Part shown: positions 38,384 to 47,276 of the stretch, piece by piece
Numbering within the stretch: position 1 is the first letter of the stretch
Layout: every line of letters starts with the position of its first letter
From: Acidobacteriota bacterium
Lineage (GTDB): Bacteria > Acidobacteriota > Blastocatellia > Pyrinomonadales > Pyrinomonadaceae
Direction: 5' to 3'
Assembly (NCBI GenBank): GCA_025463135.1
Contig: JAOAPY010000008.1
Coordinates: 1 to 64,000, forward strand
Length of the DNA stretch: 64,000 nucleotides
Translations under genes and position numbers: made by a program
The notes under the pieces: generated by a model
Told to the model about the DNA's origin: nothing
Databases searched by the model: none
The model's input: only the letters and a program-made list of their open reading frames with translations

Positions 38384-38429
38384 GCCTTCTGCCTTCTGCC
38401 TTCTGCCTTCTGCCTTCTGCCTTCTGCCC
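38384..38429. repeat. 7-bp tandem array (tctgcct), about seven units
   Basis: Perfect heptamer tctgcct (agaaggc on the other strand) repeated between the terminator and the rhodanese stop codon, which it touches. Such 7-bp arrays at gene ends recur in the window. Confidence 0.8.
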
Positions 38430-38906
38430 TCAGTGCGATTCGTTCGGGTCCGATCCGGTGACCACTTCAAAGCCGGCTTTGACCATTGCGTCATAGCCGC
38501 CCAGGACTGCAGCCGCGTTATCGATACCTTTAGTTTTGAGATAGCCCACCGAACTGGCGGACGTATGTTCGGACGGTCAAGAGCAGTAGGTGACAATCAA
38601 CTTGTCACGTGGCAGCTCATCTATATGGGCCAGGATCTCGGTTGCGGGTATCAGCCGCGCCCCTTTGATGTGACCTGCCTTGTAGTTCGGCTCACCGCGC
38701 ACGTCGATGATGACGACGTCGTTTTTCGCCATCTCTTCCTTGACCTCTGCGGGCGTGATGCGGCGGGCGTTGTCACCAGGCGGTGGCGGCGTAGTAGTCT
38801 GCAGCGTAGATTTTGCGACCTTTGGCGTGGTCTCTCTGGAATTACAGGCAGTCAGCGCAAGAAGTCCAATTAGCACGGCTGCCGTTACTGAAATAAGAGG
38901 ACGCAT
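38430..38906 (-). CDS. Selenocysteine-containing rhodanese-like lipoprotein (UGA at codon 110 read through)
   Basis: 158 residues if UGA 38579-38577 is read as selenocysteine; 109 if it stops. ATG 38906 has GGAGGTG before it. A lipoprotein signal ends LLALTAC (lipid Cys21), then a Thr/Pro linker and a rhodanese domain: DVVIIDVRGEPNYKAGHIKGAR, then VTYCS-U110-PSEHTSA. Normal domain sequence continues after the UGA (NAAAVLGGYDAMVKAGFEVV). The next UGA at 38432-38430 ends it. I expect homologues to read C-x-C-P here, so Sec would replace the second Cys. It faces the periplasm and lies downstream of a paralogue with the same UGA. If the UGA were a stop, the product would lack the final third of the domain. 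Confidence 0.82.
38541..38566 (-). promoter_or_regulatory. Candidate bacterial SECIS hairpin of the first rhodanese
   Basis: Number the UGA as 1-3. Bases 18-24 (GUCCGCC) pair with 30-36 (GGUGGGC), including two G-U wobbles; three further pairs (AUA/UAU) continue across one bulged C. The five-base loop AGUUC starts 22 bases after the UGA and has G and U at its second and third place. Size, distance and the loop G agree with bacterial SECIS rules. Confidence 0.65.
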
Positions 38907-39059: not shown

Positions 39060-39509
39060 CTATTTGCTGGTCTCAGTTGCAAACCCAGCCTTGACCATAC
39101 CGTCATATCCACCGAGAACTGCAGCTGCATTCGTAATTCCCAATTCTTTCAGAGTCAGCACCGCACCGGCGCTGGTGTGTTCGGCCGGTCAAGAGCAGTA
39201 GGTGATAATCATCTTGTCCGCCGGTAATTCCTTTGCGCGGGCGCGAATATCAGAGAATGGAATGTTAAGCGCGTCTTTGATATGGCCGGCTTTGTATGAC
39301 GCTTCGCCGCGGACATCAACCAGGACTGCCTTGCTTTTATTCAAAAGCTCGCGCGCATCCTCAGGTTTAATCCGGCGCGCTCCATCAGCACTCTCCTGGA
39401 TCGCAGCGACGGCATCAGCCCGGATGAATGCGGCGCCGGGGCCGGCGATTGACGAGCAGACCGCCAGCCCTACAATCCCGGTGATAAAGCGCAGTTTGAG
39501 AGAAATCAT
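39060..39509 (-). CDS. Selenocysteine-containing rhodanese-like exported protein (UGA at codon 107 read through)
   Basis: 149 residues with UGA 39191-39189 read as selenocysteine; the true stop is TAG at 39062-39060. ATG 39509 has AAAGGAAG before it. A signal peptide (MISLKLRFITGIVGLAVCSSIAG) leads to the rhodanese domain: AVLVDVRGEASYKAGHIKDALNIP, IITYCS-U107-PAEHTSAGAV, then GITNAAAVLGGYDGMVKAGF. By eye it is about 60 percent identical to the downstream paralogue over the domain, also after the UGA. Conservation of both UGA and downstream frame in two diverged copies argues strongly against decay. Probably a periplasmic sulfane-sulfur transferase. Confidence 0.82.
39156..39174 (-). promoter_or_regulatory. 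Candidate bacterial SECIS hairpin of the second rhodanese
   Basis: Numbering from the UGA, 18-24 (CAGCGCC) pair with 30-36 (GGUGCUG), one G-U wobble; the loop GGUGC again starts 22 bases after the UGA and resembles the GGUCU loop of the E. coli fdhF element. Relative to the paralogue, pairs 18/36, 19/35 and 20/34 have all changed with pairing kept. Confidence 0.65.
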
Positions 39510-39714: not shown

Positions 39715-41358
39715 ATGTCCGAAACAACCGCGCGATCTCTATCGTCTGACGATTCTATGACCGACCAGGCCCCCCACATACAATGGGCCAAGGTCATTGA
39801 CCACACACGCTGTATTGGCTGTCACGCCTGCACGACTGCCTGTAAATCGGAAAACGAAGTACCACTGTCGGTAACGCGCACGTACGTAAAGCACGTTGAT
39901 GTCGGCGAGTTTCCGCAAACACGGCGCGCGCACCAGGTGACCCGCTGTAATCAATGTGCGCATGCGCCGTGTGTCACGGCCTGTCCGACCACGGCAATGT
40001 TCAAGCGCCCCGACGGCATCGTGGATTTTGACAAGTCGATCTGCATTGGCTGCAAAGCCTGCATGGCCGCCTGCCCCTACGACGCCATCTTCATCAATCC
40101 CGAAGATCATTCCGCCGAGAAATGTAATTTCTGCGCGCACCGCATTGACGTCGGGCTCGAGCCCGCCTGCGTCGTGGTTTGTCCCACCGAAGCAATTCTG
40201 GTGGGCGACATGAACGACGCGGAGTCAAAAGTTGCCCGCATCATCAATCGCGAGGCCGTTGCCGTGCGCCGTCCGGAGAAGGAAACGCTGCCCAAACTTT
40301 TCTACAAGGGCGCGCATCAGGCGACACTTGATCCGCTGGCGGCACGCCGGCCTGAGGGCGGACTCTTTATGTGGAGCGAGCAACTGCTCTCGAACGATCA
40401 CGTTGTGTCCGGCAATCCGAATTTCAATAACTCTTCAGCGGCGGCGTTGTTGAGCTATGACGTACCGCACACCATTCCCTGGGACTGGCGCGTAAGTCTT
40501 TACACCTGGACCAAGGGAATCTGCGCCGGCGTTTACCTGGTCGCCGCCATGCTGGTGCTGTTCGGGTTCATGAGGAGTGACTCAATCTTGTGGCTGTATG
40601 TGACGCCGATTGTTTCCGGTGCGTTTCTCGGCATCACCGGCGGCTTGTTGATCTGGGACCTGGAACATCCCGAGCGCTTCTATCTCATCTTCACACGGCC
40701 TCAGTGGAAAAGCTGGCTGGTCAAAGGCGCGTTCATAATTGCGGGTTACTCGATCGTGTTGTTGCTGCATTTCATGGCGAGTTTGTTGGGGAGACGAATC
40801 GTTCCCGATCCGTCTATGTCCGAGCTATTGATGGCTCCGTGGGCGACCTCATTGCAGTCGTGGCTGATTGTCTTCGGATTGCCGCTGGCGGCTTTGACGG
40901 CAATCTATACCGCCTATCTCTTTGCGCAAGCCAAGGCGCGTGACATGTGGCAGAACCCTTTGCTCCCGCCGCATCTGTTTGTGCAGGCGATGCTGCTGGG
41001 ATCCGCTGCGCTGCTGCCTTTCGCTGCCTGGTATCAAGCTGAAATTGTAACGCCGCTGTTGTGGCTTCTGGCGATCAGTACGCTCGTTCATCTTTTGATG
41101 ATCTGGGGCGAAGTTTCATTGACGCATCCGACAGCACATGCGCGCCTGGCAATTTGGGAAATGGTCCAAGGCCGTTACCGCAGTGACTTTTGGATGGGAA
41201 TTTTTTTATCGGTCCTGGGGGGAGCGCTGACGTGGCTGGCACTCCTTGGAGTCGTTAGTATCTCAATAGGCATCGGCAGCGCGCCGCTGGCTCTGATGGG
41301 AATGATGCTGTTCGAGCACGCGTACGTGCAAGCGGGCCAGTCAGTACCGCTCGCGTGA
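39715..41358 (+). CDS. Fused four-cluster ferredoxin and NrfD/PsrC-like quinone-binding membrane subunit
   Basis: 547 residues from ATG 39715 (a TTG two codons before is possible). The N-terminal part has four [4Fe-4S] motifs: CIGCHACTTAC (C33 on), CNQCAHAPCVTAC, CIGCKACMAAC and CNFCAHR...CVVVC, as in PsrB/NrfC/DmsB. From about residue 265 there are eight or nine membrane segments of the NrfD/PsrC type (WDWRVSLYTWTKGICAGVYLV, GLLIWDLEHPERF). The two parts are separate proteins in classic polysulfide reductases. No Tat signal is present, so the clusters should face the cytoplasm. It would carry electrons between the quinone pool and the molybdoenzyme encoded 1.5 kb downstream. Confidence 0.92.
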   Translation: MSETTARSLSSDDSMTDQAPHIQWAKVIDHTRCIGCHACTTACKSENEVPLSVTRTYVKHVDVGEFPQTRRAHQVTRCNQCAHAPCVTACPTTAMFKRPDGIVDFDKSICIGCKACMAACPYDAIFINPEDHSAEKCNFCAHRIDVGLEPACVVVCPTEAILVGDMNDAESKVARIINREAVAVRRPEKETLPKLFYKGAHQATLDPLAARRPEGGLFMWSEQLLSNDHVVSGNPNFNNSSAAALLSYDVPHTIPWDWRVSLYTWTKGICAGVYLVAAMLVLFGFMRSDSILWLYVTPIVSGAFLGITGGLLIWDLEHPERFYLIFTRPQWKSWLVKGAFIIAGYSIVLLLHFMASLLGRRIVPDPSMSELLMAPWATSLQSWLIVFGLPLAALTAIYTAYLFAQAKARDMWQNPLLPPHLFVQAMLLGSAALLPFAAWYQAEIVTPLLWLLAISTLVHLLMIWGEVSLTHPTAHARLAIWEMVQGRYRSDFWMGIFLSVLGGALTWLALLGVVSISIGIGSAPLALMGMMLFEHAYVQAGQSVPLA

Positions 41359-42560: not shown

Positions 42561-42850
42561 TGAATCATCATTTCGAGCTTCATGCGCAGAGGGAGTATGA
42601 AGACGCGGTGGCATACTATGATGGTGTTAGCCCGCCGCTTGGAGATGACTTTATCAAAGAAGTCGAAAGAGTCATTTCGCAAATACTCAAGTTCCCTGAA
42701 GCTTGCCCAAAGTTGTCACCTTCGACGAGGCGTTGCCGCATAAAGCGCTTTCCTTACGGGCTTCTTTATCGCCTTAGGGAAGCTGACGTTGAAATCATCG
42801 CGGTGATGCATTTTAGTCGAGAACCAAACTATTGGGTGGATAGAGTGTGA
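42560..42850 (+). CDS. RelE/ParE-family toxin
   Basis: 96 residues. The fold signature is complete: HAQREYEDAVAYYDGVSPPLGDDFIKEVERVI, then RCRIKRFPYGLLYRLREADVEIIAVMHFSREPNYW, the usual end of ParE/RelE. ParE members poison gyrase and RelE members cleave mRNA; which one applies is not decided. Its UGA stop (42848-42850) overlaps the GTG start of the molybdoenzyme gene. Confidence 0.88.
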   Translation: MNHHFELHAQREYEDAVAYYDGVSPPLGDDFIKEVERVISQILKFPEACPKLSPSTRRCRIKRFPYGLLYRLREADVEIIAVMHFSREPNYWVDRV

Positions 42851-45813
42851 AGAACGAATCAATCCAACTTGTGAACGCTGCTCGCGAAGAGACCGAAGCG
42901 CGGGGCGAAACGTTTTACCCTGGCCCGAGCTGCAATCACCTCGCGGCATATCCGCCCAAAGAGCGCTGGGATGATTGGGTCGAGCTGGATTCGAAAGCCT
43001 GGCCCAAGCGGAAAGAGCGGCGCTATCAGCTCTTGCCGACTACCTGTTTCAACTGCGAGTCCGCGTGTGGCCTGCTTGCCTACATCGACAAAGCAACCAA
43101 TCAAATTCAGAAGTTTGAAGGTAATCCGGAACACCCCGGATCGCGTGGACGCAATTGCGCCAAAGGTCCGGCCACGTTGAATCAAATTACCGATCCCGAT
43201 CGCATTCTTTACCCGCTGAAGCGCGCGGGCAAACGCGGTGAAGGGCGTTGGGAGCGGGTGAGTTGGGACGCGGCACTCGATGACATTGCCGCGCGTATTC
43301 GCAAAGCAATCGTTGAAGATCGGCGCCAGGAAATCATGTATCACGTCGGCCGCCCCGGCGAGGATGGCTTCACGGAAAGAATTCTGGCCGCGTGGGGTAT
43401 TGACGGGCACAACTCGCACACAAACATTTGCTCGTCCGGCAGTCGTGAAGGCTATCAATTATGGATGGGTCTGGATCGGCCCAGCCCGGATCATGCTAAT
43501 GCAAAAGTCATTCTGCTGATCAGCGCGCATTTGGAATCGGGACACTACTTCAATCCACACGCGCAACGAGTCATCGACGGCAAAGCGAATGGCGCGAAGC
43601 TAATCGTGTTTGATACTCGTCTCTCAAACACGGCGACGCATGCCGATCATTTCATCTCGCCCATTCCCGGATCGGAAGCGGCGATTCTGCTGGCGATTGC
43701 GAACTATTTGATTCAACACAATCTGTACAACCGCGAGTTTGTGCGACGTTGGTGGAACTGGGCAGATTATCTTCGTTCCGAGTTTCGAGATTCGAGTTCC
43801 CTGTCCGACAAACTTCAGTTTGTCGACCAGGCGAGCCCGGAAAAACCTTCAGCAGGACCTGGCTTTGATGAATTCGAGCAGCTCTTGAAAGAGCTTTACA
43901 GTTCGTACACCTTCGCATATGCCGCGAGTGAATCAGGCGTCGATGCAAAAGTCCTGGAAGAGATTGCGAAGTTAGTAGCGACTGCGGGCACTCGATTCAG
44001 CAGCCACAATTGGCGCAGTGCTTCTTCAGGAGTCAGCGGCGGTTGGGCAGTGGCGCGCACGCTTTTCATGTTGAATGCGCTGCTGGGCGCGATTGCCACC
44101 GAAGGCGGTGTGTTCCCCAATGCCTGGAACAAGTTTGTGCCGCGGCCCATCTACACGCCGCCACACCCGAAGATGTGGAATGAAGTTACCTGGCCGAAGG
44201 AATATCCTCTCGCCATGAACGAGATGTCGTTTTTGCTGCCGCACTTTTTGAAAGATGGCCGCGCCAAACTCGATGTCTACTTCACGCGTGTCTACAACCC
44301 GGTGTGGACCAATCCGGACGGCTTCTCGTGGATCGAAGCGCTGACTGATCCCGAATTGATCGGCTGCTATGTTGCCATGACTCCAACCTGGAACGAGACG
44401 GCCTTCTTTGCCGACTACGTTTTGCCGATGGGGCATGGGTCCGAACGGCACGATATTCACTCCTACGAGACGCACGACGCACAATGGCTGGGCTTTCGCC
44501 AGCCGGTGATGCGCGCCGCGCGCGAGCGTCTCGGTGAAGAAATAAAAGACACACGCGAAGTAAATCCCGGCGAGGTTTGGGAAGAGAACGAGTTCTGGCT
44601 GGAACTTACCTGGCGCATCGATGCGGATGGAAGCCTCGGCATTCGCCAGTTTGTTGAATCGAAAAAGAATCCGGGCACGCGTCTGGGTATCGACGAATAT
44701 TACGAATGGATTTTTGATAATTCTGTGCCCGGTTTGCCTCAGAAGGCAGCCGCGGAAAACCTGACGCCGCTCGAATTCATGCGGCGTTATGGCGCCTTTG
44801 AAGTGAAACGGAAAGTGGGCGCGGTTTACGAAGAGACGGTTCCCGCGGAAGAGTTGGAAGACATGCGCGAAGATGCCGAGGGTCGTGTGTTCACGCGCGC
44901 GGCCAAACCTGCCTCGCCTAATATCGTTCCCCTGCCGACACCAGATGGCGATGAAGACGGACGCCGCCTTGCGGGTATCCACCTGAATGGCGAGATCAAG
45001 CGCGGCTTTCCCACGCCCAGTGGCCGGTTGGAATTCTTTTCGCGCACGCTGGCCGATTGGGGCTGGCCTGAATATGCGATACCTACTTACATCAAGAGCC
45101 ACGTGCATCGAGACAATCTCGAAGCAGATCAAACTATCCTGATCTCAACATTTAGATTGCCCGTGCAGATTCACACGCGCAGCGCTAATGCAAAATGGCT
45201 GGACGAAATCGCGCACACGAACCCGCTCTGGATTCACCCGACGTTTGCGGCCAGGCTGGGCGTTCGTACTGGAGAACTGCTGCGAGTCGAAACAGAGATC
45301 GGATACTTTGTCGTGGCCGCCTGGGTGACCGAGGGCATTCGTCCTGACGTGGTCGCCTGCAGCCACCACATGGGCCGTTGGAAGTTGACCGACGAGGGGC
45401 AGCGCCAGATGATGGCTACCGTTAAGCTGGACCACAATGAAAGCGAGTGGGGATTGAAACGCGAGCACGGGATAGAAGGTTATGAATCGTCTGACCCGGA
45501 CACCCTGCGCATTTGGTGGAAGGATGCCGGAATTCATCAAAACCTGACTTTCCCGGTCCATCCCGATCCCATATCAGGAATGCATTGTTGGCACCAGGCA
45601 GTGCGCGTGAAGCAGGCGCAGCCCGAAGATAAGCCGGGCGACATCTTTGTCGACACGAAAAAGTCGCGCGAGGTTTATCTAAAGTGGCTGGCAATGACTC
45701 GACCCGCGGACCAGCATTCACCCGACGCGACCCGGCGGCCCTACTGGATGCTGCGTCCATTAAAGCCGGCGCGTGAGTTTTACCGATTACCGACAGCCGT
45801 GAACGTTGAGTGA
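42847..45813 (+). CDS. Molybdopterin oxidoreductase catalytic subunit (PsrA/formate dehydrogenase-like)
   Basis: 988 residues from GTG 42847, overlapping the toxin stop. The N-terminal [4Fe-4S] is bound by C67, C70, C74 and C104 (CFNCESAC ... NCAKG). The probable molybdenum ligand is Cys195 (NICSSGSREGYQ). The C-terminal guanine-dinucleotide domain starts near IHTRSANAKWLDE. No Tat signal is seen, so the enzyme should be cytoplasmic. It should work with the cluster/NrfD fusion. Substrate is unknown: polysulfide, tetrathionate or another oxoanion is possible. Residues about 313-335 (SSSLSDKLQFVDQAS) are encoded by a family C palindrome in frame. Confidence 0.9.
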   Translation: MKNESIQLVNAAREETEARGETFYPGPSCNHLAAYPPKERWDDWVELDSKAWPKRKERRYQLLPTTCFNCESACGLLAYIDKATNQIQKFEGNPEHPGSRGRNCAKGPATLNQITDPDRILYPLKRAGKRGEGRWERVSWDAALDDIAARIRKAIVEDRRQEIMYHVGRPGEDGFTERILAAWGIDGHNSHTNICSSGSREGYQLWMGLDRPSPDHANAKVILLISAHLESGHYFNPHAQRVIDGKANGAKLIVFDTRLSNTATHADHFISPIPGSEAAILLAIANYLIQHNLYNREFVRRWWNWADYLRSEFRDSSSLSDKLQFVDQASPEKPSAGPGFDEFEQLLKELYSSYTFAYAASESGVDAKVLEEIAKLVATAGTRFSSHNWRSASSGVSGGWAVARTLFMLNALLGAIATEGGVFPNAWNKFVPRPIYTPPHPKMWNEVTWPKEYPLAMNEMSFLLPHFLKDGRAKLDVYFTRVYNPVWTNPDGFSWIEALTDPELIGCYVAMTPTWNETAFFADYVLPMGHGSERHDIHSYETHDAQWLGFRQPVMRAARERLGEEIKDTREVNPGEVWEENEFWLELTWRIDADGSLGIRQFVESKKNPGTRLGIDEYYEWIFDNSVPGLPQKAAAENLTPLEFMRRYGAFEVKRKVGAVYEETVPAEELEDMREDAEGRVFTRAAKPASPNIVPLPTPDGDEDGRRLAGIHLNGEIKRGFPTPSGRLEFFSRTLADWGWPEYAIPTYIKSHVHRDNLEADQTILISTFRLPVQIHTRSANAKWLDEIAHTNPLWIHPTFAARLGVRTGELLRVETEIGYFVVAAWVTEGIRPDVVACSHHMGRWKLTDEGQRQMMATVKLDHNESEWGLKREHGIEGYESSDPDTLRIWWKDAGIHQNLTFPVHPDPISGMHCWHQAVRVKQAQPEDKPGDIFVDTKKSREVYLKWLAMTRPADQHSPDATRRPYWMLRPLKPAREFYRLPTAVNVE

Positions 45814-45880: not shown

Positions 45881-45890
45881 AGAGCACGTC

Positions 45891-47276
45891 ATGTACTTCA
45901 AACAGTTCTATCTCGCGTGCCTGGCGCATGCTTCGTACCTGATTGGCTCTGATGGCGAAGCAGCGGTTGTCGATCCGCAGCGCGATGTCGATCAGTACAT
46001 CAACGAGGCCGAGGCGCAAGGCTTGCGGATCAAGTATGTCATCGAAACTCACCTCCATGCGGATTTCGTCAGCGGGCATCGCGAGTTGGCCCAGCGTAGC
46101 GGCGCTCAAATAGTTTTTGGTGACAAGGCTGCCGCCCAATTCCCGCACCGGGCCGTCAAGGATGGCGACGAAATCAGAATTGGAAGAGTGAATCTGCGTG
46201 TCATCGCTACCCCCGGCCACACTCCGGAAAGTATCTGCCTTGTGATCACCGACACTGAAGTTTCCAACCAGCCACAGAAAGTGCTGACGGGTGACACATT
46301 GTTCATAGGTGACGTGGGCCGGCCCGATTTGGCAGGAGGCAAAGGCTTCACTGCCCAGGCCATGGCCGGCATGATGTACGACAGCCTACATCAGAAATTA
46401 CTTAAGCTTGATGACGGCGTCGAAGTTTATCCCGCGCACGGCGCCGGTTCGATGTGTGGACGCAGCATGTCACAGGAAAAGTCTTCGACGATTGGCGACC
46501 AGCGCAAATTTAATTATGCCCTTAAGCCTATGCCCAAAGAGCAGTTTATCTCGATGATGACAACCGATCTGCCCGAAGCCCCTGGTTATTTCCCGCGCGA
46601 TGCCGAGATTAACCGCACGGGCGCCGCGCCGCTCGATGCCCTGCCGCGACCGGCCGCGTTCTTGCCGGAAGAGGTCATGGATTACTTAGATGCCGGCTAT
46701 GTAGTTCTTGACGTGCGTTCGGCGGCGGAGTTTGGGGCCGGACACGTGCCGGGATCTCTCAACATCGGGTTAGGCGGGCAATTCGCGATTTGGGCGGGCT
46801 GTCTGATTCCGTTGACCGCGTCGATTGTGATCGTGGCTGAGTCGGAAGGTCAGGTTGATGAAGCGGTAGTGCGATTGGCACGGGTCGGAATTGAGAAGGT
46901 GAAGGGCTATCTGGATGAAGGAATGCTGGGTTGGTCCCAGGTCGGCTACGAGATAGCGACGCTGACCCAAATTACCGTGTCTGATTTGAATGAACTGATC
47001 AATAACGAAAGCGAATTACAGATCATCGACGTTCGCCGTCCGCCGGAATATGAGAGCGGCCATGTTCCCGGAGCTATTACCGCTCCGCTGGCTGGTTTAA
47101 GTGAGACCATCGCTAAATCGAATCTGAATCGTTCAAAGACTACTGCGGTTATCTGCGCCGGTGGTTATCGATCGAGCTCGGCCACCAGCCTTTTGCAGCA
47201 AATGGGATTCAGCGCTCTCTTGAATGTGACCGGCGGCACCGGCGCCTGGATTGGCGCGGGCCATGCGGTCGAGTGA
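45891..47276 (+). CDS. Persulfide dioxygenase-like metallo-beta-lactamase fused to two rhodanese domains
   Basis: 461 residues from ATG 45891 (MYFKQFYLACLAHASYLIGS). The MBL part has THLHADFVSGH (H54, H56, D58), TPGHTPESICL, GDTLFIGDVGRPDL and PAHGAGSMCG, as in ETHE1/Blh persulfide dioxygenases, which oxidise glutathione persulfide to sulfite. The first rhodanese domain (VVLDVRSAAEFGAGHVPGS) lacks an active-site Cys, having AESEG; the second has Cys422 in CAGGYRS. This is the known architecture of cytoplasmic sulfide-oxidation proteins. It lies 77 bases after the molybdoenzyme gene. Confidence 0.93.
   Translation: MYFKQFYLACLAHASYLIGSDGEAAVVDPQRDVDQYINEAEAQGLRIKYVIETHLHADFVSGHRELAQRSGAQIVFGDKAAAQFPHRAVKDGDEIRIGRVNLRVIATPGHTPESICLVITDTEVSNQPQKVLTGDTLFIGDVGRPDLAGGKGFTAQAMAGMMYDSLHQKLLKLDDGVEVYPAHGAGSMCGRSMSQEKSSTIGDQRKFNYALKPMPKEQFISMMTTDLPEAPGYFPRDAEINRTGAAPLDALPRPAAFLPEEVMDYLDAGYVVLDVRSAAEFGAGHVPGSLNIGLGGQFAIWAGCLIPLTASIVIVAESEGQVDEAVVRLARVGIEKVKGYLDEGMLGWSQVGYEIATLTQITVSDLNELINNESELQIIDVRRPPEYESGHVPGAITAPLAGLSETIAKSNLNRSKTTAVICAGGYRSSSATSLLQQMGFSALLNVTGGTGAWIGAGHAVE

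Follow-up and report, generated by a model that had tools for sequence, protein, structure and literature searches.

Tandem free and lipid-anchored Cys-x-Sec rhodaneses predicted in an Acidobacteriota bacterium

Results

Two adjacent rhodanese genes with an in-frame UGA

The window, a stretch of 64,000 nucleotides from an Acidobacteriota bacterium (contig JAOAPY010000008.1), contains two rhodanese genes, here called copy A and copy B, which lie 153 bp apart on the minus strand. Their features are as follows.

39060..39509, minus: copy A, predicted exported selenocysteine (Sec) rhodanese, 149 codons, ATG at 39509, TAG at 39060-39062
39420..39509, minus: predicted signal peptide of copy A, hydrophobic, no canonical lipobox by eye, hence free and exported
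39189..39191, minus: in-frame UGA of copy A, codon 107, loop YCS-U-P, read as selenocysteine
39156..39174, minus: SECIS hairpin of copy A, covering nt 15-33 downstream of the UGA, loop GGUGC on a stem of 7 bp
38430..38906, minus: copy B, predicted lipid-anchored Sec-rhodanese, ATG at 38906, terminal UGA at 38430-38432 lacking a SECIS core
38844..38906, minus: predicted lipoprotein signal peptide of copy B, lipobox LTA-C
38577..38579, minus: in-frame UGA of copy B, codon 110, loop YCS-U-P, read as selenocysteine
38544..38562, minus: SECIS hairpin of copy B, loop AGUUC on the stem GUCCGCC/GGUGGGC

The original prediction, which did not give the strand, had placed the UGA of copy A at codon 107 in a Tyr-Cys-Ser-UGA-Pro loop with a TAG at the end of the gene, and the reading frame confirms this. 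It had also described a UGA in the same loop of the neighbouring copy, as is found at codon 110 of copy B. The two proteins are 48-49% identical overall; for the 38 codons upstream of the UGA the figure is 61% and for the 38 downstream of it 71%, and thus the identity of about 60% given previously is true of the rhodanese domain only. Both copies are rhodaneses according to PF00581 (59.6 bits for copy A and 57.3 bits for copy B; gathering threshold 22.2). A short run of TTCTGCC repeats lies directly beyond the stop of copy B (38400-38430). The genome of the window (G000) encodes a third, more distant rhodanese (L136, near 2374-2727 of C24), whose loop, YCACP, has no Sec and whose N-terminus resembles a signal sequence.

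A structure model of copy A was obtained from a 7-sequence alignment, with a mean pLDDT of 81.6 and blocks above 90 from residue 41 onward. In the model, a strand (residues 100-104) leads into the loop (105-110), which is followed by a helix (111-122). The best structural matches of the model are rhodaneses: 3tp9 (Z 16.9), 5ve3 (Z 16.8), which is the rhodanese domain of a persulfide-dioxygenase fusion, and 1gmx (GlpE, Z 15.0). All seven rows of the alignment have Cys105, which occupies what we take to be the canonical position of the rhodanese nucleophile; Sec107 is at loop position 3.

The UGA and the frame behind it are conserved

Among 119 genomes of the order to which the window belongs, 113 contain a match at E <= 1e-8; a single-protein scan of the contig collection confirmed only three distant rhodaneses (L047-L049). 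The fetched loci hold 131 rhodanese domain matches, of which 108 have a TGA, and 107 of these 108 TGAs, a count that takes in a few duplicates, are located at [YF]C-x-U. The counts below refer to a set of 112 distinct loops, 101 with UGA and 11 with Cys. A Glu is present at position 110 (codon columns +7 to +9) in all 101 Sec copies.

The sole TGA off this site (1/108) lies in a YCSSPTU loop of L113 (G036 C8, minus strand), in the first of two rhodanese domains and three residues beyond the usual site. A strong hairpin comes after it (stem CGCCGCC/GGCGGCG, loop containing G), but without the usual core spacing, and a YCTU copy adjoins this domain. The UGA of the YCSSPTU loop may mark a second Sec position, in line with the C-x4-C loops found in L047. 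The latter locus (L047:3875-5387, Elusimicrobiota CP096137.1) contains three consecutive rhodanese frames with YCGxxTC loops, another two-cysteine loop type.

Behind the UGA, the frame of the 101 Sec copies stays open for a median of 43 codons, the two shortest reaching contig ends, and is closed by TAA in 51 copies, TAG in 35, TGA in 13 and no stop in 2. Codons after the UGA show 0.54 synonymous versus 0.18 nonsynonymous differences per site in 209 pooled and mutually non-independent pairs of relatives, and the corresponding values for the codons before it are 0.66 and 0.20. Between copies A and B, dN is 0.29 and dS is 1.38 after the UGA. An excess of silent changes after the UGA, which had been put forward as a check, is therefore present, and these substitution patterns show purifying selection on the reading frame downstream of the UGA.

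The two UGAs had been considered very unlikely to reflect decay or sequencing error, a judgement upheld by the 101 distinct copies that keep the UGA at one residue. A pseudogene or sequencing error was rejected in view of the conserved UGA residue, the SECIS described below and the constrained downstream frame.

A bacterial-type SECIS core follows the UGA

A core of the bacterial type, GCC-nGnnn-GG, occupies +19 to +28 after the UGA in 100 of the 101 distinct Sec copies, so that the Ala codon at the core is always GCC in the Ala-bearing ones; L030, the sole Sec copy without the core, has ACC instead of GCC. Only two of the 11 Cys copies keep the core (L022 and L031), the other nine having GCA, GCG or a different residue. 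None of the 13 terminal UGAs has a core. Among the 2166 TGAs on both strands of the window, four have the core at the exact spacing in a chance test, and two of these four belong to copies A and B. The apical-loop G is conserved in the SECIS of the Sec copies, and bacterial SECIS elements are described with a conserved G in the loop (in a part of PMC1088965).

An unsupervised consensus fold gave five pairs, joining +17 to +21 with +27 to +31. For the seven proposed pairs, 81% of the cells pair versus 27-52% with the partners slid, and versus a mean of 74% and a maximum of 77% in 1000 shuffled-partner controls. Changes on both sides of the stem were observed at +17/+31 (GC 58, CG 8) and +18/+30 (CG 54, UA 29), and include a Ser codon switch from AGY to TCC that leaves the amino acid unchanged. 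The outer two stem pairs are poorly kept (60/97 and 38/97). A single-sequence fold of the copy A hairpin closes one pair beyond the 7-bp stem; the 42 nt after the UGA, folded singly, are not unusually stable (z -0.55 and -0.64). Rfam returned no match in the whole window at the gathering threshold, which says nothing against a SECIS of such type.

Selenocysteine machinery is associated with the UGA

The genome of the window (6.48 Mb, completeness 100) has SelB (364 bits), SelA (523.6 bits), SelD (353.6 bits) and tRNA-Sec (69.7 bits), all over the cut-offs. Its SelD match (L134, G000 C42:181825-182751) contains an in-frame TGA as well, and thus SelD is probably a selenoprotein too. Across the order, SelB exceeds the cut-off in 86 of the 98 genomes whose best match has the TGA versus 2 of the 9 without it (Fisher p = 5.6e-5). 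These nine include G019, whose rhodanese lacks the motif, and G095 and G101, in which SelB is present. No SelB over the cut-off was found in any of six genomes with a single match and a CxC loop (G052, G063, G065, G066, G068 and G079; G052 and G079 are drafts less than 90% complete). SelB over the cut-off is missing from 12 TGA genomes, eight of them drafts less than 90% complete; the other four (G016, G054, G099 and G102) are not below that level. The Cys copies L022 and L031, with the core, and L119 and L120, without it, come from genomes with SelB. In three genomes of one genus, a Sec-rhodanese gene follows selB in the same orientation, at a distance of 183-254 bp (G112 C14:831301-833866, G113 C777 and G117 C180).

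Together, the machinery, the SECIS, the conservation of the UGA, the Cys replacements and the association with SelB strongly support selenocysteine, and not decay, at both UGAs.

Free and lipid-anchored copies recur in tandem pairs

At the end of its signal peptide, copy B matches a lenient lipobox pattern (MRPLISVTAAVLIGLLALTAC), from which lipidation is predicted. The N-terminal sequences support copy B as a predicted lipoprotein and copy A as a predicted soluble exported protein, in agreement with the earlier claim of one lipid-anchored and one free copy. By the same lenient pattern, a lipobox is present in 72 of the 101 Sec copies; of the rest, 25 begin with a plain hydrophobic stretch and 4 have neither feature.

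Tandem YC-x-U pairs are found in seven genomes (G000, G001, G104, G028, G074, G044 and G073), and the split recurs among them. Exactly one copy is a lipoprotein by pattern in five pairs (G000, G001, G104, G028 and G073; start codons of the G104 and G028 copies were picked by eye), and in the other two (G074 and G044) one copy has, by eye, a Cys after an imperfect lipobox (LPLAC and VFAC). The free copy is upstream in G000, G001, G104, G028 and G074, and downstream in G044 and G073. In a tree built from few columns, with 38 of 108 inner branches open, the free copies of G000, G001 and G104 group together (92/94, just below the support mark), while both members of the G044, G073 and G074 pairs fall within a separate 55-row clade (100/100). 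These separate clades imply at least two duplications.

Relation to known rhodanese families

Rhodanese selenoproteins have been divided into five forms, of which form 3, CxU, corresponds to NF041203 (2026 review, PMC13188914, in part); the CxU form is also listed in a 2022 review, which in the part concerned places rhodanese selenoproteins under ‘predicted’ (PMC9312934). Copies A and B share the Cys-x-Sec loop of this family (NF041203 rhodanese_LYCAU, ‘rhodanese-like form 3’), both as YCSU, but differ from it in their tandem arrangement of a free and a lipid-anchored protein and in their scores, 62.6-69.4 bits for copy A and 63.0-70.7 bits for copy B in two scans. Assignment to NF041203 as such was rejected, these scores being far under its cut-off of 115. 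NF041203 was matched at E <= 1e-15 by 85 of the 247 genomes sampled from the phylum, and its cut-off was exceeded in one. To our knowledge, no rhodanese selenoprotein has a tested function.

GlpE and PspE have the same single-domain rhodanese fold and canonical catalytic Cys, but contain no Sec, whereas copies A and B carry a second chalcogen at loop position 3 and are predicted to be exported; GlpE is cytoplasmic. TsoB (NF045694), a double selenoprotein resembling a rhodanese/DsbD fusion, is likewise a rhodanese-type selenoprotein, but the two copies score 21.8 and 18.9 bits against its cut-off of 805. ExtH, the rhodanese of a selenite/tellurite operon, matched copy B only, at E = 0.0048.

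In open-licence PMC papers, we found no description of tandem or lipid-anchored Sec-rhodaneses. The pair had originally been called unusual, which holds for its tandem layout and not for the proteins singly, as CxU Sec-rhodaneses are already catalogued and most genomes of the order have one. The pair itself is well supported, and it differs from the known CxU Sec-rhodaneses in family score and in the tandem free and anchored layout.

Putative sulfur genes lie beside the pair

Divergent from the pair, the plus strand encodes the following genes.

39715..41358, plus: 4Fe-4S subunit (TtrB/DsrO-like) fused to an NrfD membrane subunit, Tat motif not seen by eye
42847..45813, plus: catalytic subunit of a molybdopterin oxidoreductase, closest to PhsA in NCBIfam though under the cut-off, Tat motif not seen by eye
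45885..47276, plus: metallo-beta-lactamase/rhodanese fusion, with Lactamase_B and two rhodanese stretches

Neither the complex nor the fusion reaches an NCBIfam cut-off. The fusion scores 62.9 bits against NF040641 sulfurtransferase/dioxygenase (cut-off 625), and our guess is that it may be a persulfide dioxygenase-like protein. The neighbouring complex resembles the sulfite dehydrogenase SoeABC and PsrABC in its molybdopterin, 4Fe-4S and NrfD subunits, but differs in the fusion of the Fe-S and NrfD parts and in reaching no NCBIfam cut-off; the names SoeA, SoeB and SoeC are absent among the NCBIfam matches listed for it. SoeABC faces the cytoplasm (PMC8076601, in part). As in SoeABC, neither subunit of the window has a Tat motif by eye, so a cytoplasm-facing, SoeABC-like complex would fit. 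Among the papers listed for SoeABC, persulfide dioxygenase and rhodanese together, none appeared to deal with the present arrangement, the accessible part of PMC11507549 included.

A Sec-rhodanese is divergent to the FeS/NrfD gene in 13 of the 37 genomes with a close form of the latter, a count from which broken contigs may hide others, and within 8 kb on the same strand in two more. All four genes are found in the window and in L140, L141, L142, L148 and L149 (5/16 loci compared). G027 and G028 carry sulfate-type ABC transporter genes in between; the G028 binding protein is over the cut-off of sulfate-binding TIGR00971 (180.3 versus 155.5 bits), and the permease and ATPase are below their own cut-offs. 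L138, L139, L143 and L144 have the FeS/NrfD and molybdopterin genes with no Sec-rhodanese in the stretch.

A 31-row sister clade (94/93) shows another linkage, which was looked for in 105 loci: in 27 of its 28 loci, a Bcp-type peroxiredoxin gene precedes the rhodanese gene in the same orientation. The linked loci include L080:3048-3506, L104:2135-2593 and 25 others, and the L080 peroxiredoxin is over the NF006960 thiol peroxidase cut-off. Since this clade is linked to peroxiredoxin and the tandem pair of G001 (L127) is without these sulfur neighbours, the link to sulfur oxidation is not universal.

Discussion

We propose a model for the two proteins, the chemical steps of which are inferred. 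The UGA would be decoded as selenocysteine by SelA, SelB, SelD and tRNA-Sec under the direction of the hairpin 15-33 nt downstream, a step that is very well supported. Cys105 would then accept sulfane sulfur, with thiosulfate, a persulfide or a polysulfide as the donor, and Sec107 may attack the Cys persulfide, so that sulfide is released or the sulfur is passed on and an S-Se bond is left, which an exported thiol reductant could reset. On this view, both proteins would act on sulfane sulfur beyond the cytoplasmic membrane and would either feed or protect a pathway of the neighbouring genes, in which, we guess, sulfite is formed by a persulfide dioxygenase and then oxidised by the NrfD/molybdopterin complex. 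As Cys and Sec occur together in one loop, redox turnover appears more plausible than simple transfer. The reading we favour, at about an even chance, is an exported Cys-x-Sec persulfide or thiosulfate redox enzyme. More tentatively, and with distinctly lower confidence, the soluble and anchored copies may be the two halves of an exported system by which sulfane sulfur is reduced or relayed to serve the sulfur-oxidising genes next to them, in which case the split between them, having evolved more than once, would itself be functional.

Several other explanations were weighed. That the UGA is a true stop, ending both genes in decaying or truncated products, agrees with the standard code, which halts both frames there; it is nonetheless extremely improbable, since 101 distinct copies across the order keep the UGA with an open, constrained frame behind it, and the SECIS and the Sec machinery are present. 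A plain sulfur relay, as suggested in the original prediction, would have the soluble copy take up sulfane sulfur and hand it to the anchored copy, Sec speeding the transfer with no net reduction. The predicted rhodanese fold with its conserved canonical Cys, the sulfur-gene neighbours and the free-plus-anchored split, seen in five pairs by pattern and two by eye and arisen at least twice on the tree, all speak for such a relay. However, tandem pairs occur in only seven genomes and the other fetched loci have one copy, so that a relay is not needed for function; the order of the free and anchored copies also differs among lineages, and two chalcogens in one loop suggest redox chemistry. We regard a plain relay as rather doubtful; the CxU pair is explained no less well by redox chemistry.

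Alternatively, the CxU rhodanese might serve in redox defence, as an exported reductase of peroxide, of disulfides or under persulfide stress that is co-expressed with peroxiredoxins, sulfur transfer being incidental. The peroxiredoxin linkage in the 31-row clade points this way, as does the fact that selenoproteins of known function are mostly redox enzymes (PMC9312934, in part). On the other hand, no export signal is apparent in the L080 peroxiredoxin, while most of the rhodaneses carry one, and the copies of the window adjoin other genes; this explanation appears unlikely for them. An exported Cys-x-Sec enzyme of persulfide or thiosulfate redox chemistry remains our preferred reading.

Under annotation with the standard code, both genes end at the UGA. 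The natural Cys replacements track the loss of SelB. With a UGA-containing family across most genomes of the order, tandem pairs, these Cys replacements and recurring neighbours, the question of what selenium does in a sulfurtransferase fold becomes directly testable on matched Sec and Cys proteins.
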